From assembly GCA_003576695.1 (NCBI GenBank), contig QOZQ01000010.1, positions 124,001-188,000 of the forward strand: DNA of 64,000 nucleotides, written 5' to 3'. The DNA comes from Taklimakanibacter lacteus. GTDB taxonomy: Bacteria; Pseudomonadota; Alphaproteobacteria; Rhizobiales; Aestuariivirgaceae. Both the position numbers and the translations under genes were made by a program. This document shows positions 9,164 to 21,837 of this stretch, piece by piece (the first letter of the stretch is position 1; every line of letters starts with the position of its first letter). A model generated the notes under the pieces. It had not been told where the DNA came from. It saw only the letters and a program-made list of their open reading frames with translations, and made no database searches.

Positions 9164-9175
9164 CCACATATGTGG
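9164..9175. promoter_or_regulatory. 12-bp palindrome upstream of AraC-type gene
   Basis: CCACATATGTGG is a perfect 12-bp palindrome about 130 bp before the proposed AraC-type start and just after an AT-rich patch. It could be an operator or part of the promoter region for the regulator; no direct assignment is possible. Confidence 0.35.
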
Positions 9176-9306
9176 CGGGACGGGGGCGTTTCTACGGCAT
9201 CGCTATGGCGAGCGGGGACTTTGCGCATTCACTGGCGCGAAGCAGCTCTCTTATGCGGTCTACCCAGAACATGCCTTGCCTGCACAGGCACAGGAGGCAT
9301 GGGGCG

Positions 9307-10224
9307 ATGCGGGGGACGGCCGGTGTCGCGGAAGAAGAGCCAAGCAGGCGAGAACGCAGTCGGCAGAGAGTCGAGCCGCATATTCTCGATGTCATTCCCT
9401 CAAGCGCGGGTCCCAGGCTGGCGACAGCCGGGGGTGGGGTGATCTATTCGCTCCGCCAGCCCGGATCGCAGTCATTATTGGCTGAAAACCATTTCGTAGC
9501 CGTGATGCTCGCCCCGGCGCCGGGAAACCGGGCAGCACTGGCAAGCGACAGGTTGACGCGATACGATGCGCCGATCGGGGCGCTTGTCGTCCAACCAGCG
9601 ACGGTTGAAGGCCGCGCTATCTGGTCATGCACCAGAGAATCCGTGATCATAGCCATGAAGCCCGAGAGCCTTGCCGATGTGGCGGCGAGCGCGCTCGATG
9701 CCGGCCATGTGGCTCTCAGGCCGCCGGCCTTCGGAACCGTCGACCCGATAGCGCTGCGCATCGCGGAAATGATGAAGATCGAGCTGACGCAGGGCGGAAC
9801 GGCAAGCGAGCTCTTCATGGACACGCTGATCACACTGTTCAGCATTCATTTGCTACGGACCTATTCGGGCGTGAGCGCGCAGCCGGCAAAGGCGAGGGGA
9901 GGCCTTTCGGTATCGAGTGCGCGCCGGGTGCACGAATTCCTGAATGAAAACTTCTCGCAAAAGCTGTCTGTAGCCGAGCTTGCCGGAATCTGCGGCCTCT
10001 CGCCCTATCATTTCATCGGCGCGTTCACCAAGACCTTCGGACAATCGCCTTACCAGTATCTCCTCGCCCTGCGACTGGCGTTTGCCGAGAAGCTGCTGGT
10101 CGAGGGAGGCCTGCCGATTGCGGAGATCGCTTATCTGAGCGGGTTTTCGAGCCAGAGCCATCTGACCGCGACCATGAAGAAGCACCGCAACAGGACCCCG
10201 GCCGAGATCCGACCCGGTGCATAA
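9307..10224 (+). CDS. AraC-family transcriptional regulator
   Basis: 305-residue regulator with a variable N-terminal sensing half and a C-terminal AraC double helix-turn-helix. The first helix pair is seen in KLSVAELAGICGLSPYHF, the second in LPIAEIAYLSGFSSQSHLT, ending in the usual HRNRTPAEIR. The ATG at 9307 is chosen over a GTG at 9172 because AGGAGG at 9292-9297 stands 9 bp before it and the upstream residues look random. It follows the importer operon on the same strand after 289 bp and may regulate it, but the separate promoter region means this is only inference. The inducer is unknown. Confidence 0.85.
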   Translation: MRGTAGVAEEEPSRRERSRQRVEPHILDVIPSSAGPRLATAGGGVIYSLRQPGSQSLLAENHFVAVMLAPAPGNRAALASDRLTRYDAPIGALVVQPATVEGRAIWSCTRESVIIAMKPESLADVAASALDAGHVALRPPAFGTVDPIALRIAEMMKIELTQGGTASELFMDTLITLFSIHLLRTYSGVSAQPAKARGGLSVSSARRVHEFLNENFSQKLSVAELAGICGLSPYHFIGAFTKTFGQSPYQYLLALRLAFAEKLLVEGGLPIAEIAYLSGFSSQSHLTATMKKHRNRTPAEIRPGA

Positions 10225-10480: not shown

Positions 10481-13400
10481 ATGCAGGGTTTCGTTCAGTC
10501 GTCAGCGGCAGCACGCCTGTTCTTGTCGAGGGACCTGCTGCTCGCGGGGCGCGACATTGGGCGCAGCGTGCTAGCCGCTCTGGTGATGATCAGCGCAGTC
10601 TTCTTCTCGAGCGCTACCGCTCATGCTCAGGCCGGCGGCGCATGCAATCTCGCCGTCAACGGTTCATTCGAATCTCCGAACATTCAAACAGAGCCACAAC
10701 GGCCGGGTGAGAATACGTCCATTATTAATGGCTATGCGATCTGGCGGACGACGACATATCCCCTCGACGGCTGGCAGACCGTCAGCGGCACGGTGGACCT
10801 GCTCCGTTACCACAGCAATGCCAGCGACGGGATGCAAAGCATCGATCTGTGGGGCACCGCGCCGGCAACACTCCGGCAGACCTTCACCGGCCTGCTTCCC
10901 GGACAGCAATATACTTTTTCGATCGACTATGCCGGACAGTCGGCTTCGCAATCGATCGCTTCGGTTCGGTTGGGGAATGGAAACGGGGTAGCACCCGTCA
11001 CCATCGCGACACTTCAGCCTGTTGCCAATTCCATCCTCAACGGGGGCAGTGGTCTTCCTACAACGCCGTATTATACGCAAACCTGGGCCACCTATCAGCA
11101 TACTTTCGTGGCGGCGGGTACCGCGGCAACGATTCAGTTCGTTAACAATGCCGCCCCCGGTCCCGGAAACACGGGTCTCTTCATAGACAATTTCACCTTC
11201 GCCAGCGCCGAGCCGTGCACAGATCTTTCGATCACCAAGGACGATGGCGCAACGACGTTCACACGCGGCTCCAATGTCACCTACACCATCGTCGTCAGCA
11301 ATAATGGCTCCGTCGATGCGCCGAGCGTCCAGGTCAGCGATCCGTTGCCGACAGGCATCACGACGGCGACCTGGACCTGCGGCAGCGCCACGGGCGGTGC
11401 CGCTTGCGGCGTAGCGAGCGGCACGGGTGCAATCAATACGACGGCCGATATGCCGGCGGGTTCTTCGGTCACCTATACCCTCACGCTGACGGTGCCGCCG
11501 AGCTATTCCGGCGTCATCCTGACCAACACGGCCACCGTCACCGCGCCGGACGGCATCACCGATCCCGACACGAGCAACAACACGGCGACCGATTCAAACG
11601 CGGTGTCGCCAGCGCAGCCGGGCTTTGGCTCGTGCGATGCCAGCTTGTATCTGGCGCAGAACGTTCCGACAGGGCTTTTCGAGTTCAATACCTCCTCGAA
11701 CCCATTCATCGTCAATCCGGTCGGGCCGGCCTCGTCGGTTCAGTACAACGCAATCGCGATGCACCCCACCAATGGCTACATCTATGGGCTGCAAGGGCCG
11801 GCCGGCACACTCGTGCGCATCGGCAGCGACGGCAGCGTAGTGAATCTTGGCGCGATCTCAGGTCTCTCGACCAACAGCGTCTCCGGTGAGATCGGCCCAG
11901 ACGGCACGTACTATGTGGCGGCAGGCGGCTTGCTCTATCGCATCAATCTGGAAACAAAGTCGGCCACTTCAGTCGTGCTGAGCCAGAACATCGGCACCCT
12001 GGATATGGCCTGGCACAATGGGCTGCTCTACACGGCGGTCGACAGCAGCAATCTCTACGCGATCAATCCGGCGAACGGAAGCGTCACCACGATCGGTCTC
12101 ACAGGGACCACCGGCCCCTTCGGCGGCATGTTCGGCGCCACCAATGGCGTCTTCGGCAGCAACAATAATGGCGGTTTCTATCGGTTCGACCTGACGACAG
12201 GTGCGGCCACGCTGATCTCGGCTCTGCAGGGGTCCGGCAGCAACGACGGCGCGAAGTGTGTCACGACGCCGATGAATTTCCCGGCCGATCTGGCGATCAC
12301 CAAAAACAACGGCACTGACATCTACGCCACGGGCGTGGACACCACCTATACGATTGTTGTCACCAATGACGGCCCCTTCGGCGCGCAGGGCGCGTTGGTC
12401 AGCGATCCGCTGCCCACGGGCATCACGGAAGCGACCTGGACTTGCGGCGCTCCGACGAACGGGGGTGTTTGCAGTGTGCCGAGCGGCACCGGTCCGATCG
12501 AGAATGTGCCGGTGAACCTGCCTGTCGGCGCCTCCGTTACCTTTGAGCTGACCATCAGCATACCAGATACCCAAAGCGGTTCCTTGAGCAACACGGCAAC
12601 GGTCACGCCACCCGGGGGCACCACTGATCCTGACCTCGCCAACAATGAGGCCAACGACACCGACCTGCACGAGCCGGCGCTGGAACTCCAGAAGACCGGC
12701 ATGCTCAACGACCTGAACGGCAACGATCTTATCGATCCGGGCGAAACGATCACTTACTCGTTCCTTGTCCGCAATACCGGTAGCGTCACCCTCACCAATG
12801 TCACGGTAAGCGACCCGCTGGTGACGGTCGATCAAGGACCGCAGACGCTGGCACCCAATGCTACTTTCACCTTCACGGCGACCTACGCTCCCACACAGGC
12901 TGATATCGATGCGGGGGCGGTGACCAACACCGCCACTACTTCCGGCACCACGCCAAGTGGCGAGACCGCCGAAAGCCCGCCCGACAGCGTCACGGTTCCA
13001 CCCGCGCAGACGCCGGGCATGACGGTCGACAAGACCGGCACGCTCAACGATCTGGATGGCGACGGGCTTCTCGATCTCGGCGAGACGATCAGCTATTCCT
13101 TCCTCGTCCGCAACACAGGTGCGGTCACGCTGACCAATGTCACGGTGAACGACCCGCTGGTGACGGTCAATCAGGGCCCGCAGACCCTGGCGCCCAACGC
13201 CACCTTCACCTTCACGGCGACCTACACGCCGACACAGGCCGATATCGATGCCGGCTCGGTGACCAACACCGCCACTACTTCGGGCACCACGCCAAGTGGC
13301 GAGACCACCGAAAGCCCACCGGACAGCGTCACGGTTCCACCCGAACAGACACCGGGCATGACGGTCGACAAGACCGGCACACTCAATGACCTGGATGGTG

Positions 13401-16400
13401 ACGGGCTTCTCGATCTCGGCGAGACGATCAGCTACTCATTCCTCGTCCGCAACACGGGCGCGGTCACGCTGACCAATGTCACGGTGAACGACCCGCTGGT
13501 GACGGTCAATCAGGGCCCGCAGACCCTGGCGCCCAACGCCACCTTCACCTTCACGGCGACCTATACGCCCACCCAGGCCGATATCGATGCCGGCTCGGTG
13601 ACCAACACCGCGACAGCCACCGGCACCACGCCGGACGGCGAGACGACCGAAAGTCCGCCCGACAGCGTGACGGTGCCGCCGGAACAGACACCGGGAATGA
13701 CGGTCGACAAGACTGGCACGCTCAATGATCTGGATGGCGACGGCTTGCTCGATCTCGGCGAGACGATCAGCTACTCCTTCCTCGTCCGCAACACCGGAAA
13801 CGTGACGCTGACCAATGTCACGGTGAACGACCCGCTGGTGACGATCGATCAGGGTCCGCAGACCCTGGCGCCCAACGCCACCTTCACCTTCACCGCGACC
13901 TACACCCCGACGCAGGCCGATATCGATGCCGGCACGGTGACCAACACGGCGACCGCCACCGGCACAACGCCGGGCGGTGAGACGACCGAAAGTCCGCCCG
14001 ACAGCGTCACGGTTCCACCCGAACAGACGCCCGGCATGACGGTCGACAAGACCGGCACACTCAATGACCTGGACGGCGACGGCTTGCTCGATCTCGGCGA
14101 GACCATCAGCTACTCCTTTCTCGTCCGCAACACCGGCGCGGTCACCCTCACCAATGTCACGGTCTCCGATCCGCTGGTGACGGTCGACCAGGGTCCGCAG
14201 ACCCTGGCGCCCAACGCCACCTTCACCTTCACCGCGACCTACACACCGACGCAAGCCGACATCGATGCCGGCTCGGTGACCAACACCGCGACCGCCACCG
14301 GCACCACGCCGGGTGGGGAGACAACCGAAAGTCCGCCCGACAGCGTGACAGTGCCGCCCGAGCAGACGCCGGGCATGACCATCGACAAGACCGGCACGCT
14401 CAACGATCTCGATGGCGACGGGCTGCTCGATCTCGGCGAGACCATCAGCTACTCCTTCCTGGTCGGCAATACCGGCGCGGTGACCCTCACCAATGTCACG
14501 GTCAGCGATCCGCTGGTCTCGGTGAATGAGGGGCCGCAGACCCTGGCGCCCGGCGCCACCTTCACCTTCACCGCGACCTACACCCCGACCCAGGCCGATA
14601 TCGACAACGGCTCGGTGACCAACACGGCCACTGCCTCTGGCACCACGCCGAGCGGCGAGACGACGGAGAGCCCGCCCGACAGCGTCACGGTGCCGCCGCA
14701 GCAGACGCCGGGCATGACAGTCGACAAGACCGGCACGCTCAATGATCTCGACGGCGATGGCTTGCTCGATCTTGGCGAGACGATCAGCTATTCCTTCCTC
14801 GTCCGCAACACCGGCAATGTGACCCTCAGCAATGTCACGGTGAGCGACCCGCTGGTGACGGTCAATCAGGGGGCGCAGACGCTGGCGCCCAACGCGACCT
14901 TCACCTTCACCGCGACCTATACGCCGACCCAGGCCGATATCGACGCCGGCTCGGTGACCAACACCGCGACCGCCACCGGCACCACGCCGGGCGGTGAGAC
15001 CACGGAGAGTCCGCCCGACAGCGTGACGGTGCCGCCGGAGCAGACACCGGGCATGACAGTCGACAAGACCGGCACGCTCAACGACCTCGATGGCGACGGG
15101 CTTCTCGATCTCGGCGAGACGATCAGCTATTCCTTCCTCGTCCGCAACACCGGCAGCGTCACCCTCACCAATGTGACGGTGAGCGACCCGCTGGTGACGG
15201 TCAATCAGGGTCCGCAGACCCTGGCGCCCAACGCGACCTTCACCTTCACCGCGACCTATACGCCGACCCAGGCCGATATCGATGCCGGCTCGGTGACCAA
15301 CACCGCAACCGCCACCGGCACCACGCCGGACGGCGAGACGACGGAGAGTCCGCCTGACAGCGTGACAGTGCCGCCGGAGCAGACACCGGGCATGACGGTG
15401 GACAAGACCGGCACGCTCAACGACCTCGATGGCGACGGGCTTCTCGATCTTGGCGAGACCATCAGCTACTCCTTCCTCGTCCGCAACACGGGCACGGTCA
15501 CGCTGACCAATGTCGCGGTCAATGACCCGCTGGTGACGATCGACCAGGGGGCGCAGACTCTGGCGCCCAACGCCACCTTCACTTTCACCGCGACCTATAC
15601 GCCGACCCAGGCCGATATCGATGCCGGCTCGGTGACCAATACCGCAACCGCCACCGGCACCACGCCGGACGGCGAGACGACGGAGAGTCCGCCTGACAGC
15701 GTGACGGTGCCACCGGAGCAGACACCGGGCATGACGGTGGACAAGACCGGCACACTCAACGACCTCGATGGCGACGGGCTTCTCGATCTTGGCGAGACGA
15801 TCAGCTACTCCTTCCTCGTCCGCAACACGGGCACGGTCACGCTGACCAATGTCACGGTCAATGACCCGCTGGTGACGATCGACCAGGGGCCGCAGACTTT
15901 GGCGCCCAATGCCACCTTCACCTTCACCGCGACCTACACCCCGACCCAGGCCGATATTGATGCCGGCTCGGTGACCAATACCGCGACCGCCGGCGGCACC
16001 ACGCCGGGCGGTGAAACCACTGAGAGCCCACCTGACAGCGTGACGGTGCCACCGGAGCAGACGCCGGGTATGACGGTCGAGAAGACCGGCATTCTCAATG
16101 ATCTTGACGGCGACGGCTTGCTCGATCTCGGCGAAACGATCAGCTATTCCTTCCTGGTCCGCAACACCGGCAGCGTGACCCTCACCAATGTCACGGTGAA
16201 CGACCCGCTGGTGACAGTGAATGAAGGGCCGCAGACCCTGGCGCCCGGTGGCAACTTTACGTTCCACGCGAGCTACACGCCGACACAGGCCGATATCGAT
16301 GCCGGCTCGGTGACCAATACGGCGACTGCCAGTGGCACCACGCCGGGCGGTGAAACCACCGAAAGTCCGCCTGACAGCGTGACGGTGCCGCCACAGCAGA

Positions 16401-18100
16401 CGCCCGGCATGACCATCGACAAAACCGGCGCGCTCAATGACCTGGACGGCGATGGCGTGGCCGATCTCGGTGAGACCATCGGCTACTCGTTCCTGGTCAC
16501 CAATACCGGCACAGTGACCCTCACCAATGTGATGATCAACGATCCGCTGGTAGCGGTCGATCAGGGTCCGCAGACCCTGGCGCCCGGCGCCACCTTCACC
16601 TTCACCGCGACCTATGCCCCGACCCAGGCCGACATCGATGCGGGTGGGGTGACCAACACCGCGACCGCCACCGGCACCATACCGGGCGGCGGCGCCATCG
16701 AAAGCCCGCCCGACAGCGTGACCATAACCATACCGCCGCCCGCCAGCCTGACGATCCAGAAGACTGGCGCGTTCAACGACGTCGATGGCAATGGCTATGC
16801 CAGTGTCGGCGACACGATCACCTATTCCTTTGCCGTGACGAATACCGGCGGGCAGACGGCCACCGGGGTCTCGCCGCAAGATGCCGGCCCGACCTTCAAC
16901 GGGCAGCCCGCCAGCAACAGCCTTTCCGCCTTCGAGCCGACGGAAGTGACGCTGGCGCCCGGCGCCTCCCAGACCTTCACGGCAACCTATGTGCTGTCAC
17001 AGCAGGACATCGACAACGCCGCCGGGGTCACGGACGGCATCAGGAATTCGGCGACGGCGCGCGGCACGTCTAACGGCTCAACCGTGCCGTCGAACACGTC
17101 TACATCCGACGAATCGATGCCCGCCGTGGCCGCATCGGACATCACCATCGTCAAGCAGGCCGGGTTGCGGCAGATCCGCCGCGGCGAGAAGGCACCCTTC
17201 ATCATCAGGGTGACGAATAATTCGAGCAGCAATGTCGCCGGCATAACGGTGACGGATGTCATGCCGTCGGGCTTCCGCTATGTCGACGGCTCGGCGACCG
17301 TGGACGGCATTGCCGCCACCCCGGTGGTCAACGGCCTGCGGGTACGTTTCGATAACATCTCGATAGGTCCGAACGCCGAAGTGGTGATCCGCCTCCAGAT
17401 GCTCGCTTTGAGCTCGGCCGGCCCGGGTGAGCATACCAACCGGGCGATTGCCACCGGTCCGGACGGCCGCGTGCTGGCGGAAGCCAAGGCCTCGGTCGAG
17501 ATCGTGATCGAGGCGGTATTCGATTGCGGCGACATCATCGGAAAGGTGTTCGATGACCTCAACCGCAATGGCTACCAGGACGACGGCGAACCCGGCCTGC
17601 CGGGGGTACGGGTCGCCACCGCCAAGGGCTGGCTGATCACCACCGACAAATTCGGCCGCTTCCACGTGCCTTGCGCTGCCCTTCCGGACCAGCGCATCGG
17701 CTCGAACTTCATCATGAAGCTCGACACGCGCACGCTGCCCCTGGGCTATCGCCTGACGACGGAGAACCCGCGCGTGATCCGCCTGACGGCGGGCAAGATG
17801 AGCAAGCTCAATTTCGGCGCATCGATCGGCCGCGTGGTCCGCGTCGACCTGAGGGGTGAAGCCTTCGAGGCCGGCAGTGCCGAGCTCAGGCCGCGCTGGG
17901 CCCGAAGAATCGACAAGCTGATCGAAGTGCTGAGCGCGGAACAATCCGTGCTGCGCCTCAGCTACATCGATGCGCGGTCCAATGAAGCCATCGCCAGAAA
18001 ACGCCTGGATCACTTCAGCGAGCTGATCCGCGAGCGGTGGCGAGAAAGGGGAGGACGGTATCGGCTGGAAATCGAGACACGGGTGGAGGTGGGCCAATGA
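10481..18100 (+). CDS. Giant exported DUF11-type repeat protein with SdrD-B-like and OmpA-like C-terminus
   Basis: 2539-residue predicted surface or outer-envelope protein. Order seen: signal peptide (1-49, cleavage near AHA/QA); a DUF642-like beta domain (about 55-245, NGSFESPN, GMQSIDLWG); a DUF11 domain (about 247-375); a beta-propeller-like segment (about 382-598); a second DUF11 (about 601-730); twelve 113-residue repeats (731-2086); a variant repeat (about 2087-2215); a third DUF11; an SdrD-B-like domain from about 2348 (VFDDLNRNGYQDDGEPG); and a C-terminal OmpA-like segment (FEAGSAELRPRW) that may touch peptidoglycan but lacks some usual motifs. Each repeat holds a DxDGDGxxDxGE calcium-loop-like motif. 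The stop overlaps the barrel gene's start by 4 bp. Adhesin or structural fibre is plausible; function is unproven. Confidence 0.85.
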   Translation: MQGFVQSSAAARLFLSRDLLLAGRDIGRSVLAALVMISAVFFSSATAHAQAGGACNLAVNGSFESPNIQTEPQRPGENTSIINGYAIWRTTTYPLDGWQTVSGTVDLLRYHSNASDGMQSIDLWGTAPATLRQTFTGLLPGQQYTFSIDYAGQSASQSIASVRLGNGNGVAPVTIATLQPVANSILNGGSGLPTTPYYTQTWATYQHTFVAAGTAATIQFVNNAAPGPGNTGLFIDNFTFASAEPCTDLSITKDDGATTFTRGSNVTYTIVVSNNGSVDAPSVQVSDPLPTGITTATWTCGSATGGAACGVASGTGAINTTADMPAGSSVTYTLTLTVPPSYSGVILTNTATVTAPDGITDPDTSNNTATDSNAVSPAQPGFGSCDASLYLAQNVPTGLFEFNTSSNPFIVNPVGPASSVQYNAIAMHPTNGYIYGLQGPAGTLVRIGSDGSVVNLGAISGLSTNSVSGEIGPDGTYYVAAGGLLYRINLETKSATSVVLSQNIGTLDMAWHNGLLYTAVDSSNLYAINPANGSVTTIGLTGTTGPFGGMFGATNGVFGSNNNGGFYRFDLTTGAATLISALQGSGSNDGAKCVTTPMNFPADLAITKNNGTDIYATGVDTTYTIVVTNDGPFGAQGALVSDPLPTGITEATWTCGAPTNGGVCSVPSGTGPIENVPVNLPVGASVTFELTISIPDTQSGSLSNTATVTPPGGTTDPDLANNEANDTDLHEPALELQKTGMLNDLNGNDLIDPGETITYSFLVRNTGSVTLTNVTVSDPLVTVDQGPQTLAPNATFTFTATYAPTQADIDAGAVTNTATTSGTTPSGETAESPPDSVTVPPAQTPGMTVDKTGTLNDLDGDGLLDLGETISYSFLVRNTGAVTLTNVTVNDPLVTVNQGPQTLAPNATFTFTATYTPTQADIDAGSVTNTATTSGTTPSGETTESPPDSVTVPPEQTPGMTVDKTGTLNDLDGDGLLDLGETISYSFLVRNTGAVTLTNVTVNDPLVTVNQGPQTLAPNATFTFTATYTPTQADIDAGSVTNTATATGTTPDGETTESPPDSVTVPPEQTPGMTVDKTGTLNDLDGDGLLDLGETISYSFLVRNTGNVTLTNVTVNDPLVTIDQGPQTLAPNATFTFTATYTPTQADIDAGTVTNTATATGTTPGGETTESPPDSVTVPPEQTPGMTVDKTGTLNDLDGDGLLDLGETISYSFLVRNTGAVTLTNVTVSDPLVTVDQGPQTLAPNATFTFTATYTPTQADIDAGSVTNTATATGTTPGGETTESPPDSVTVPPEQTPGMTIDKTGTLNDLDGDGLLDLGETISYSFLVGNTGAVTLTNVTVSDPLVSVNEGPQTLAPGATFTFTATYTPTQADIDNGSVTNTATASGTTPSGETTESPPDSVTVPPQQTPGMTVDKTGTLNDLDGDGLLDLGETISYSFLVRNTGNVTLSNVTVSDPLVTVNQGAQTLAPNATFTFTATYTPTQADIDAGSVTNTATATGTTPGGETTESPPDSVTVPPEQTPGMTVDKTGTLNDLDGDGLLDLGETISYSFLVRNTGSVTLTNVTVSDPLVTVNQGPQTLAPNATFTFTATYTPTQADIDAGSVTNTATATGTTPDGETTESPPDSVTVPPEQTPGMTVDKTGTLNDLDGDGLLDLGETISYSFLVRNTGTVTLTNVAVNDPLVTIDQGAQTLAPNATFTFTATYTPTQADIDAGSVTNTATATGTTPDGETTESPPDSVTVPPEQTPGMTVDKTGTLNDLDGDGLLDLGETISYSFLVRNTGTVTLTNVTVNDPLVTIDQGPQTLAPNATFTFTATYTPTQADIDAGSVTNTATAGGTTPGGETTESPPDSVTVPPEQTPGMTVEKTGILNDLDGDGLLDLGETISYSFLVRNTGSVTLTNVTVNDPLVTVNEGPQTLAPGGNFTFHASYTPTQADIDAGSVTNTATASGTTPGGETTESPPDSVTVPPQQTPGMTIDKTGALNDLDGDGVADLGETIGYSFLVTNTGTVTLTNVMINDPLVAVDQGPQTLAPGATFTFTATYAPTQADIDAGGVTNTATATGTIPGGGAIESPPDSVTITIPPPASLTIQKTGAFNDVDGNGYASVGDTITYSFAVTNTGGQTATGVSPQDAGPTFNGQPASNSLSAFEPTEVTLAPGASQTFTATYVLSQQDIDNAAGVTDGIRNSATARGTSNGSTVPSNTSTSDESMPAVAASDITIVKQAGLRQIRRGEKAPFIIRVTNNSSSNVAGITVTDVMPSGFRYVDGSATVDGIAATPVVNGLRVRFDNISIGPNAEVVIRLQMLALSSAGPGEHTNRAIATGPDGRVLAEAKASVEIVIEAVFDCGDIIGKVFDDLNRNGYQDDGEPGLPGVRVATAKGWLITTDKFGRFHVPCAALPDQRIGSNFIMKLDTRTLPLGYRLTTENPRVIRLTAGKMSKLNFGASIGRVVRVDLRGEAFEAGSAELRPRWARRIDKLIEVLSAEQSVLRLSYIDARSNEAIARKRLDHFSELIRERWRERGGRYRLEIETRVEVGQ
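12671..16738 (+). repeat. Twelve tandem 339-bp coding repeats
   Basis: The boundaries fall exactly every 339 bp (12671, 13010, 13349, 13688, 14027, 14366, 14705, 15044, 15383, 15722, 16061, 16400), so every unit is 113 codons with no indel. Most units begin TPGMTVDKTGTLNDLDGDG and end in PPDSVTVPPEQ. The first unit is the most diverged; the last two also differ (EKTGILND, DKTGALND). A thirteenth, more divergent relative begins at 16739. Differences are mostly synonymous, which points to recent amplification or continuing gene conversion under selection for the protein fold. Confidence 0.93.
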
Positions 18101-21100
18101 GAACGATCGTCGGCAACCCCGTGACCAATGGATCCTGGGCCATGAACACCTCGCGACGTCAGAAGCTTTTCCTGGGCACGGCGCTGTCCTTCCTCATGCT
18201 GGTGAGCGGCGAAACCTTCGCGCAGAGTCCCGGCGACTGCGGGGACGATGACTGCATGCCGCAGGTCCGCGGCAAGGTGCTCGACGACAGTTCGTCAGGC
18301 CATATCCCCATCGGCAAGAACACCGAGCGCGAGACCCCGGCCGATGAGGGCGATATCCCGTTCTCGATCAGCGTCGATGGGAAAGCCATCGATGGAAGCG
18401 CTTCGAAGGCGGAGGCCAAGCCGGTCGACAGGCAGAGAAGGATAGACACGGCACTGAGCTCGGTCGACATCCAGATCAAGTATGACGGCCTGGAGAAGGG
18501 AACGCTGCTCAACATATCGACCGTGCCGGTCAGACGGGTCTACAAGGCGGGCGAGCCGGTCCATTTCCTCGCCACCGCCAACTATCCGGCCTTTATCGAG
18601 CGCTCGGAGATCCGCATCTACGAGCGGAAGAAGGAACGGAGCGAAGGGCCGTTCGAGATCATTCCCGTCACCATCAATGGCGAGGCCGAATGGACCATGC
18701 CCTCGGACGAGGACGAGGTGAGGGAGTTCTACTATGTCCTGCGCGTATATGATGCCGAGGGCCGCTATGACGAGACCGCGGCCCTGACAATCGCGCGCAC
18801 CGAGAAGGATCTGCCTCCCGCGGCGGACAAGGCTTCCTTCGCGCCGGGGATGAGCGAGGACCGCACGGCGCTGCGCAACATTCCGGTGAATGGCGGCGCC
18901 GTCACGATCTATGGGCGCAACGTGCCGGAAGGCTATTCGGTCGAAGGCTTCGGCGAAGCGATACCGCTCGATCGCAACCAGGCCTTCGTCGTGCAGCGCA
19001 TCCTCCCGCCCGGCGATCATGTGGTTGGTATCGCCGTCAATGGGCCGTCAAGGAAGAGCGGGTTGCGCTTCAACCGGGACATCAACATCCCTGATAATGA
19101 CTGGTTCTATGTCGCTTTGGCCGATCTGACCGTCGGCATGCGCACCGGCGATTCCAGGATCGAGACCGTTCGCCCCGGCGAATATGACAAGGTCTATGCC
19201 AAAGGCCGCACCGCCTTCTATCTGAAAGGCAAGATCAAGGGCGAATATCTGCTCACCGCTTCGGCCGACACGACCGAGGACGATCTCGACAAGCTGTTCA
19301 GCAATCTCGACGGCAAGGATGCGAAGCAATTGCTGCGCCGCCTCGATCCGGACGACTACTACCCGGTCTATGGCGATGATTCGACCTTCACCGAGGACGC
19401 ACCGACCAAGGGCAAGTTCTATGTGCGCCTCGAACGGGGCGACAGCCATGTGATGTGGGGCACCTACAAGACGCGGATCACCGGGCCTGAATTCATGCGC
19501 TCCGAGCGTGAGCTTTATGGCGCCAATGCCGTATACCGATCGCAGGAGGCGACGTCCTTCGGCGAACGCAAGACCGAGGTGACCCTCTACGCCTCGCAGC
19601 CGGACACGCTGCCGCAGCGCGAGGAGTTCCTGGCAACAGGCGGTTCCGCCTACTTCATGAAGCATCAGGATATCACGGCGGGCTCCGAGACGATCACCAT
19701 CGAAATCCGCGATGAGGTGACGGGACGCGTCATGGAGCGCCGCACCCTGAGCTATGGTGATGATTACAGTTTTGATTATTTGCAGGGCGTTCTGATCCTG
19801 AAGCGCTCGCTCTCATCGACGCTGGGTACCGACGAGCCGGTGCGCAATGGAGCTTTGGGCGGCAACAGGGTCTACCTGATCGCCCAGTACGAGTTCACCC
19901 CCGTCCTGGAGGATGTGGACGGCTATAACTATGGCGGCCGGGCCCAGCAATGGCTGGGCGAGAAAGTCCGCGTCGGCGTGACCGGAATGAACGAGACCAC
20001 GGGGGCCGACGACCAGCAGGCGCTTGGCGCCGATATCCAGCTGCGCCACTCGGAGAGGACCTTTGTTGAAGGCGAGTTCGCCCACTCCGAGGGGCCGGGC
20101 TTCGGCCTTTCGCGCTCGACCGACGGCGGACTGAGCTGGGGCGATACCACCGGCAGCAATCGCAACCGCAAGGGCGATGCCTGGCGAGTGCGCGGCCAAA
20201 TGGCTCTCGAGGAGCTGAACGACAGCGGCCTGTCCGGCGTCGTGGGCGGCTACTATGAGGAGAAGCGGGCGGGTTTCTCAACGCTCGCGCAGGAAATCGA
20301 CTATGACCGCACCATCTGGGGCGTGCATGGCGATGTCGATGTGAGCGAGAGTGTCCGCGTCGCGATCACCTATGATGACTTCGCAGACGACGAAGGGCAG
20401 GAGAAGCGGGACGGAAAGGCCAGCGTTACCTGGGAACTGGATGACGAGTGGAAGGTCTCCTTCGGTCTCGGCTATACGGAGATCATGTCGCCGCTGGCGA
20501 TTGCATCGGGCAAATCCGGATATGACGGCTCGCGCGTCGATGCAGGCGTCAGGGTAAGCTACCGGTGGGACGATGATCACAAGGTTTACGTGTTCGGTCA
20601 GGGCACTCTCGACCGTTCGGGCAACATCGACCGCAACGACCGCATCGGCATCGGCAGCGCCATCCGGCTGACGGAGAAGATCGGCCTCGAGAGCGAGCTT
20701 TCCTACGGCACGCATGGCATAGGCGCGCTGGCGGCGCTGACCTATGATCCGACCGCCGACGACCACTACTATCTCGGCTATAAGCTCGACCCGGACCGCG
20801 GCTATGACCTGGACCGGGTCTACGATCTCTTCGGCACCGACCTGGGTGCCATCGTGGCGGGCGTCAGAAGCAAGATCAGGGAGGATATCTCGGCCTATTC
20901 CGAGAGTACTTACGACATGTTCGGCGACCGGCATTCGCTCGCCCAGACCTATGGCGTGGTCTATACGCCGGCTGCGGCATGGACCATAGATGGCGGGCTC
21001 GAGGTCGGGCGGATCCGGGACGAGACCGTCGATGCAGGCACGGGCTTCCAGCGCGAGGATTTCGATCGCTACGCACCGTCTCTGCTGATCGCCTACAAGG

Positions 21101-21837
21101 ACGAAGAGGCCGGAATCAGCGGCCGTGTGCGAGGCGAGGTGCGCATAGAGCGCTCCGATGACGATACGCGCGATCAGAACAGCTATCTCTTCGCGGCCGG
21201 CGTCGCCTGGAAGACGAGCGACAATTGGCGGCTGCTCACCAATGTGGACGCCGTCCTGTCGGACTCGACCTCATCGGCGACGACGTTCCAGGATACCAAT
21301 TATGTCGAGGCATCGATCGGCTATGCTTACCGGCCAGTGGACAATGATCGCCTCAACGCGCTGTTCAAATATACCTGGCTCTACGATATGCCGGGCAACG
21401 ATCAGCTCGACAGCGAGGACACCTTCGCGCCCGCTCAGCGCAGTCATATCCTCTCCGCCGACGTCATCTATGACTTGACGCCCTGGCTGTCGCTCGGCGC
21501 CAAATATGGCATGCGCTTCGGTGAGGTCCGCAACAGGACCGATGACGGGCAGGGCACCGATTTCGAGGATGACTGGGAAAGCTCGACGGCGCATCTCGGC
21601 ATCATCCGTTCCGATCTTCATATCGTGAAGAACTGGGACGTGATGCTCGAAAACCGGGTGCTGCACATGCCCGAGGCCGATACGACCGACTACGGCCTTC
21701 TCGCCGCCTTGTACCGGCATGTCGGCGACAACTTCAAGGTCGGCGTCGGCTACAATTTCGGGGTGTTCTCGGACGATCTGAGAGACCTTACGCTCGACGA
21801 CGAAGGCGTTTTCGTGAACATCATCGGCAGTCTCTGA
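18097..21837 (+). CDS. Predicted outer-membrane beta-barrel partner of the giant repeat protein
   Basis: 1246 residues from the ATG at 18097, which overlaps the upstream stop (ATGA) behind GGTGGAGGTGGG. An alternative ATG at 18142 (MNTSRRQKLF) would give a cleaner signal peptide ending FAQS. After the signal come a short Cys-containing, acidic linker (CGDDDC), two Ig-like beta domains (about 150-350; VRRVYKAGEPVHF, RNIPVNGGAVTIYG), and a conserved block near 420-455 (YPVYGDDSTF, GKFYVRLERGDSH). From about residue 610 there are many alternating aromatic and acidic strands typical of a large barrel. The last residues are FVNIIGSL, without the usual terminal Phe. Coupling to the giant protein suggests a role in its display or anchoring; this is inference. 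Confidence 0.8.
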   Translation: MRTIVGNPVTNGSWAMNTSRRQKLFLGTALSFLMLVSGETFAQSPGDCGDDDCMPQVRGKVLDDSSSGHIPIGKNTERETPADEGDIPFSISVDGKAIDGSASKAEAKPVDRQRRIDTALSSVDIQIKYDGLEKGTLLNISTVPVRRVYKAGEPVHFLATANYPAFIERSEIRIYERKKERSEGPFEIIPVTINGEAEWTMPSDEDEVREFYYVLRVYDAEGRYDETAALTIARTEKDLPPAADKASFAPGMSEDRTALRNIPVNGGAVTIYGRNVPEGYSVEGFGEAIPLDRNQAFVVQRILPPGDHVVGIAVNGPSRKSGLRFNRDINIPDNDWFYVALADLTVGMRTGDSRIETVRPGEYDKVYAKGRTAFYLKGKIKGEYLLTASADTTEDDLDKLFSNLDGKDAKQLLRRLDPDDYYPVYGDDSTFTEDAPTKGKFYVRLERGDSHVMWGTYKTRITGPEFMRSERELYGANAVYRSQEATSFGERKTEVTLYASQPDTLPQREEFLATGGSAYFMKHQDITAGSETITIEIRDEVTGRVMERRTLSYGDDYSFDYLQGVLILKRSLSSTLGTDEPVRNGALGGNRVYLIAQYEFTPVLEDVDGYNYGGRAQQWLGEKVRVGVTGMNETTGADDQQALGADIQLRHSERTFVEGEFAHSEGPGFGLSRSTDGGLSWGDTTGSNRNRKGDAWRVRGQMALEELNDSGLSGVVGGYYEEKRAGFSTLAQEIDYDRTIWGVHGDVDVSESVRVAITYDDFADDEGQEKRDGKASVTWELDDEWKVSFGLGYTEIMSPLAIASGKSGYDGSRVDAGVRVSYRWDDDHKVYVFGQGTLDRSGNIDRNDRIGIGSAIRLTEKIGLESELSYGTHGIGALAALTYDPTADDHYYLGYKLDPDRGYDLDRVYDLFGTDLGAIVAGVRSKIREDISAYSESTYDMFGDRHSLAQTYGVVYTPAAAWTIDGGLEVGRIRDETVDAGTGFQREDFDRYAPSLLIAYKDEEAGISGRVRGEVRIERSDDDTRDQNSYLFAAGVAWKTSDNWRLLTNVDAVLSDSTSSATTFQDTNYVEASIGYAYRPVDNDRLNALFKYTWLYDMPGNDQLDSEDTFAPAQRSHILSADVIYDLTPWLSLGAKYGMRFGEVRNRTDDGQGTDFEDDWESSTAHLGIIRSDLHIVKNWDVMLENRVLHMPEADTTDYGLLAALYRHVGDNFKVGVGYNFGVFSDDLRDLTLDDEGVFVNIIGSL

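Follow-up and report, generated by a model that had tools for sequence, protein, structure and literature searches.

We consider it fairly probable that a pair of overlapping genes in Taklimakanibacter lacteus (Alphaproteobacteria) encodes a bipartite fibrillar-adhesin system, in which a dedicated outer-membrane barrel anchors, and probably also exports, a giant repeat fibre. The pair lies in a 64,000-nucleotide stretch of contig QOZQ01000010.1 (positions 124,001 to 188,000 of the forward strand), referred to here as the window, and its features are all on the plus strand. The first gene (10481..18100) encodes a fibrillar-adhesin-like protein of 2539 amino acids (P0001, the giant), delimited by its open reading frame (ORF) and by Pfam and NCBIfam matches. 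The second (18097..21837) encodes a protein of 1246 amino acids counted from the overlapping ATG, a GTG at 18037 being an alternative, longer start, and is called the barrel from its AlphaFold2 model. At the junction, GGAGG is followed by 7 bases and by the sequence ATGA (18097..18100), in which the ATG of the barrel overlaps the TGA stop of the giant. An ORF check agrees with an earlier note, made from the letters of this DNA, on both reading frames and on the 4-bp overlap.

The giant reads, from its sequence, as a CLIPPER fibrillar adhesin. The domains DUF11 and DUF7507 have been renamed CLIPPER and CLIPPER_2, and the crystal structure 9IFR contains a CLIPPER domain with a Lys-Asn isopeptide bond and a presumed catalytic Asp; the bond is missing from some DUF11 domains (PMC12617251). 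Behind an N-terminus that resembles a signal peptide by eye (10481..10627), the giant has two candidate tip domains: a DUF642 or choice-of-anchor C-like domain (10646..11194), which scores below the cut-off (Pfam DUF642 6e-5; NCBIfam TIGR04362 48 bits against a cut-off of 120), and a DUF6923 region (11648..12265), a strong Pfam match (1.4e-49) to a family of unknown function. A Pfam-detected DUF11 (CLIPPER) domain lies between them (11222..11593). The stalk is made of 12 tandem DUF7507 (CLIPPER_2) units of exactly 113 amino acids each (12692..16759) and a longer 13th unit. Pfam assigns DUF7507 1104 bits over 15 stretches of the giant and DUF11 14 stretches, partly overlapping, and Tandem Repeats Finder reports a single array (12692-16722, period 339 bp, 11.9 copies). 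At the DNA level adjacent 113-residue units share 76-93% identity, so duplication seems to be how the stalk lengthens; among relatives, with the partial L010 omitted, giants range from 666 amino acids (L076) to more than 3963 (L016, cut).

The Lys/Asp/Asn triad of the isopeptide type was found by motif in 12/12 of the exact repeats, the longer 13th unit being without the Asp motif, and a Lys-Asn isopeptide bond probably locks each of the stalk domains. Loops of the EF-hand type, with the pattern D-x-[DN]-x-[DN]-G-x-x-[DNST]-x-x-[ED], occur 13 times in the giant, namely in 11 of the 12 exact units (not the first), in the 13th unit and in the SdrD_B domain described below. Shuffling the giant 1000 times gave a mean of 0.006 loops and a maximum of 1; 11 of the 13 loops are near-identical repeat copies and hence not independent. 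Such loops suggest that Ca2+ probably stiffens the stalk, and among the 68 other giants of at least 600 amino acids at least one loop is present in 64 and eight or more in only 8. On the Sulfitobacter guttiformis plasmid pSG53 (53 kb; L016:1-11894), one DUF11 giant takes up 18.6 kb, about 6195 amino acids by annotation.

The C-terminal module of the giant consists of a last DUF11 (CLIPPER) domain (17135..17512), which matches the solved domain 9ifr in sequence (E 3e-7) and in fold (TMt 0.78), an SdrD_B domain with a conserved EF-hand-like loop (17525..17812), supported by the model and by Pfam below its cut-off, and a degenerate OmpA-like domain without GHTD (17813..18091). Two Cys of the SdrD_B domain (P0001 2349 and 2398) are invariant in 63 aligned sequences, in which the loop is nearly invariant as well. 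AlphaFold2 models this end as DUF11, SdrD_B and a beta-alpha-beta-alpha-beta domain (P0001 2445-2537) with a mean predicted local distance difference test score (pLDDT) of 92.7, and its predicted template modelling score (pTM) of 0.62 makes the mutual placing of the three domains less sure. Profile comparison relates the last domain to the OmpA domains of relatives (66% probability, E 5.7e-5); the fold-search rows for this model cover residues 2-241, outside that domain. PF00691 has no match at E<=1 in the window giant or in its end, and for the OmpA-like ends of 20 relatives 2/20 reach E 0.045 at best. The SdrD_B-like and OmpA-like segments of the earlier note thus stand, the first below cut-off and the second by model and profile without a Pfam OmpA match. 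The holding of peptidoglycan, which the note ascribes to OmpA-like domains as a frequent role, is doubtful for the window giant, whose OmpA-like end lacks the GHTD motif.

For the second protein the AlphaFold2 model predicts an outer-membrane barrel, as had been supposed, with a mean pLDDT of 75.6 and a pTM of 0.72; a contrary prediction was among the refuting findings named in the earlier note. Its transmembrane part (19060..21831) has about 36 predicted strands, an estimate from the DSSP assignment of the AlphaFold2 model, and fold matches of the model are outer-membrane barrels. A small beta-rich insert after about the sixth strand (19573..19812, by DSSP of the model) is plug-like in position and may act as a plug. 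Ahead of the barrel lies an N-terminal region (18349..19059) that had been described as Ig-like; it is beta-rich in the model and putatively Ig-like. Neither Pfam, NCBIfam nor PDB holds a matching sequence family for the barrel, and a PDB profile search with the barrel alignment returned only matches of E 0.14. Among the barrel ORFs counted, 75/94 end in Phe, and the window barrel ends in Leu. In one relative (L134:3443-7741) the barrel profile has two matches in the N-terminal region, which points to duplication of an N-terminal domain.

The evidence that ties the two proteins together is their co-occurrence. Profiles of the barrel and of the giant's C-terminal module were searched against 397 Pseudomonadota genomes with different cut-offs (1e-3 and 1e-15, respectively), and rows that were second pieces of one frame were omitted (11 of 73 for the barrel, 8 of 73 for the module). 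The barrel was found in 53/397 genomes and the module in 50/397, all 50 of them within the 53 (Fisher p 2e-60, which overstates the evidence because the genomes are related), and the three barrel-only genomes hold a 91-residue fragment or matches of only E 3-5e-4. Rarity of such co-occurrence had been named beforehand as what would refute the pairing; in the event 50/50 genomes with the giant's end have the barrel. The 62 barrels comprise 28 in the same frame as the module, 29 same-strand neighbours and 5 that fall in neither class; contig ends seem to have split two of these five. The module lies upstream of the barrel in 28 of the 29 neighbour cases, and in the other (G221) the order is reversed with the genes 46 bp apart.

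A second survey took the best 80 of 575 relatives in named genomes, leaving out the window locus, and scored 66 loci as paired, 1 as fused, 7 as orphan and 6 as not assessable. One of the paired loci (L048) was so scored on a weak match (E 4e-8) with the SdrD_B part uncovered and another (L032) with the module split over two frames; between the module and the first start candidate downstream of it lie 948 bases in L029 and 747 in L060. Among the pairs, 52/80 have an in-frame start codon at -4. Plasmid loci were paired in 7/7 cases, the seven being taken from 24 matching records. On a Paracoccus alcaliphilus plasmid (L015, 8997-15546), a short ORF with an SdrD_B/OmpA-like end stands directly upstream of the barrel and is preceded by IS110 and IS5 transposases.

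Natural fusions join the same parts in one chain. In L131 (G059) the stalk, SdrD_B, OmpA-like domain and barrel share one frame of at least 2079 amino acids, cut at the contig end, and the fused frames of L141 and L072 measure 4545 and 1728 amino acids. A distant, lower-scoring barrel group contributes 27 barrels in module-holding frames of 1661-2422 amino acids, and two of its members (G368 and the second copy of G148) stand beside the module without being fused to it. The domain order of stalk, SdrD_B, (OmpA) and barrel is kept in the fusions. SdrD_B runs into the barrel through a short linker in L072 and L141, whose barrels are 28% identical. Because both of these fusions drop the OmpA-like domain together with the barrel's N-terminal region, they hint that the two segments form a docking pair joining separate chains. 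A FastTree built from 49 selected barrels places L072 beside a split Phyllobacterium protein (0.89) and sets the distant fused barrels apart; the joined state has therefore changed at least twice. Near distant fused genes (L129:2-901, L130:202-1434 and L140:564-3248), a further ORF has a weak DUF11-profile match of 12-24 bits, and it is perhaps another fibre subunit.

The OmpA part is mobile across relatives, as judged from their sequences, and is found on the giant, on the barrel or, in Vibrio, as a separate protein. The giant of Vibrio campbellii (L017) stops at SdrD_B without an OmpA-like end, and the barrel is followed by a separate 301-residue protein (P0003) with a lipoprotein-like start and two OmpA domains. 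PF00691 is matched by this protein and in L014 and L092, and it is the barrel N-terminus that carries the OmpA part, by Pfam, in Eleftheria (L014) and in a Syntrophaceae metagenome-assembled genome (MAG; L092) and, by the GHTD motif, in a Methylotenera MAG (L091) and several other genomes. Giants partnered with OmpA-bearing barrels keep a degenerate OmpA copy of their own. In Croceibacterium (L018), a GHTD copy follows the degenerate one at the giant's end, and PF00691 matches the fused L130, in which the motif reads GHTN.

From these data a working model of the bipartite system can be proposed. The head, consisting of the DUF642-like, CLIPPER, DUF6923 and CLIPPER domains, would point outward at the N-terminal end, and the repeat-variable stalk, its domains probably isopeptide-locked and stiffened by Ca2+, would serve as the extender. 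The membrane-proximal end would be formed by CLIPPER, SdrD_B and the OmpA-like domain, with SdrD_B at the membrane. The co-translated barrel, about the size of SprA, would be a dedicated outer-membrane partner that holds the SdrD_B/OmpA-like end on the periplasmic side, and it would most likely also be the exit pore for the N-terminal fibre. In relatives, the base is probably fastened to peptidoglycan by canonical OmpA domains, while the OmpA-like domain of this genome, with its motif lost, may mainly dock onto the N-terminal domains of the barrel.

Several known systems resemble parts of this arrangement. The closest counterpart of the giant is B9T28_05395 of Acinetobacter silvestris, a CLIPPER adhesin with an OmpA-like anchoring domain that shares the order of head, tandem CLIPPER stalk and terminal OmpA-like domain (PMC12617251). 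CLIPPER adhesins also share with the window giant the Lys/Asp/Asn triad and the fold match to 9ifr. In contrast to the published description of the Acinetobacter protein, the genes reported here come with an overlapping or fused barrel gene, and the window giant has an SdrD_B domain ahead of its degenerate OmpA-like domain. In the main text of PMC12617251, a term search found no word starting with "barrel" and no "outer membrane". GhpA of Aureispira (grappling hook, PDB 9flp, 5898 residues) matches the DUF11 part of the profile (hmmsearch E 5e-8). AtaA-TpgA, a giant trimeric-autotransporter fibre with a peptidoglycan-binding helper (PMC13082670), is likewise built of a giant fibre, an outer-membrane barrel and a periplasmic helper, and by analogy it offers the best precedent for holding the barrel of a giant fibre by means of such a helper. 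Vibrio relatives, with their separate double-OmpA protein beside the barrel, come close to it; unlike AtaA-TpgA in architecture, the window giant and barrel are separate chains, and the barrel is a single large one and not trimeric.

For the barrel itself, the first Foldseek hit is chain A of the type IX secretion complex 8gl6 (prob 1.00), which we take to be SprA. Similarity to SprA/Sov of type IX secretion lies in the estimated strand number, the TM-score to the window barrel being only 0.14 (query) and 0.08 (target). The SprA translocon has 36 strands, is about 7 nm in size and is large enough for folded cargo (PMC7463736), and by that analogy a barrel near its size could pass the giant chain. 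FimD-type ushers gave the highest structural Z (15.3), tied with porins, at a root-mean-square deviation of 14 A over 355 residues. Ushers are 24-strand barrels with a plug between strands 6 and 7, and the insert of the window barrel lies after about strand six, where ushers carry theirs; no chaperone or pilin was present among the ten flanking ORFs scanned. By family, at E<=1 in Pfam, the barrel matched neither Usher, nor DUF560 of type XI secretion (Slam), nor PF03797 of classical autotransporters, whose order of N-terminal passenger and C-terminal barrel in one chain is met only in fused relatives. Two-partner secretion (type Vb) was set aside on the same basis, since neither protein has a POTRA, TpsB or TPS-domain match, and this, together with the natural fusions, bears out the earlier view that the system differs from it.

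A number of observations weigh against a barrel that both anchors and exports its own fibre. The model behind the strand count has low confidence around fragment residues 801-884. The docking-pair argument is weakened by L131, which is fused and yet retains both the OmpA-like domain and the barrel's N-terminal region; L131 and L141 form one clade (FastTree, 0.95). Seven orphan barrels (L036, L038, L039, L041, L042, L055 and L094), all from Nitratireductor/Chelativorans, have no SdrD_B/OmpA-like module anywhere in the fetched locus, and L142 and L143 are two further orphans. The Nitratireductor/Chelativorans barrels may serve a giant encoded elsewhere; the strain of L036 also carries the paired L047, and L020, from the species of L094, is cut and not classifiable. 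The barrel was absent from all 4 same-genus genomes searched, and the system is therefore dispensable and patchy. With the window's own genome included, it is present in 10/60 relatives and the barrel in 10/289 alphaproteobacterial genomes (E<=1e-30). The co-occurrence counts, moreover, fit an anchor-only role equally well, and in Eleftheria terrae (L014:16266-23465) type II secretion-like genes for pseudopilins, a secretin and GspE/PulE are located a few kb downstream of the pair and offer a possible other export route.

The strongest alternative, which we regard as rather unlikely yet a serious contender, is that the barrel merely holds the C-terminal end of the fibre, export being left to type II secretion or to an unlinked exporter. 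AtaA-TpgA provides a precedent for a giant fibre with a peptidoglycan-binding helper (PMC13082670), OmpA domains travel with the system, and the Eleftheria locus is the one of six annotated plasmid neighbourhoods with type II secretion-like genes. Against it, about 36 strands would seem to exceed what an anchor needs, and no exporter of this protein class stands out in the other five neighbourhoods, the autotransporter gene downstream in L012 being unrelated. A second alternative, in which the repeats do not protrude as a fibre but remain periplasmic or build an S-layer-like envelope lattice, could draw on Deinococcus SlpA as the second Foldseek hit of the barrel and on archaeal porins with DUF11 repeats, proposed as members of the S-layer (PMC12617251); a fixed-width periplasm would hardly tolerate the range of giant lengths given above, and we judge this very improbable. 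It is likewise very improbable that the barrel is a TonB-dependent uptake receptor with the giant as its substrate-capturing surface partner, for although 7/20 among the plasmid matches listed are annotated "TonB-dependent receptor" and such receptors occur among the Foldseek matches, Pfam Plug and TonB_dep_Rec are unmatched at E<=1, which sets the family aside, and the giant has the architecture of a stalk.

The earlier note had put the whole system forward as a candidate undescribed one, which can apply to one part of it. The fibre belongs to a published kind, both the isopeptide chemistry of the stalk and an OmpA-anchored CLIPPER adhesin having been described (PMC12617251), whereas for the barrel and its pairing no description was found in the open-access literature searched, most subscription papers lying outside it. 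One survey suggests that a good number of anchoring motifs and domains may await recognition (PMC9210967), and another counts PF03895, the autotransporter domain and LapG/RTX among the most prevalent anchors (PMC8286594). For the question of how giant CLIPPER fibres are exported and held in Gram-negative bacteria, a barrel that accompanies the module in every sampled genome with it offers a specific, testable partner. The pairing would also correct the receptor label on the seven plasmid matches. A bolder form of the preferred reading, rather doubtful at present, is that the barrel is a self-sufficient, SprA-sized translocon for one giant adhesin, whose SdrD_B/OmpA-like end remains in place as a plug and as an anchor in the wall. 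If so, this unrecognised secretion type would span alpha-, beta- and gammaproteobacteria, and the fused relatives would represent autotransporters of a new kind, distinguished by their outsized barrel.

The surroundings of the pair were followed over ten flanking ORFs. Upstream lie an AraC-family regulator (9172..10224; Pfam HTH_18 5.4e-19), possibly a regulator of the pair, and then ABC-transporter genes, and downstream an M20 peptidase and a glyoxalase. A long minus-strand ORF (13436-16879) was set aside as a probable shadow of the repeats. Promoter and terminator scans gave 3 found against 2.9 expected and 4 found against 7.9 expected, respectively. The third-position G+C of the giant (0.81) and of the barrel (0.80) is inside the range of the neighbouring ORFs listed. 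An AraC-type regulator homologue is present in at least 9 of the 98 loci scanned, a lower bound as many of these loci end before passing the giant, and in 3 of those 9 the regulator stands downstream of the barrel.

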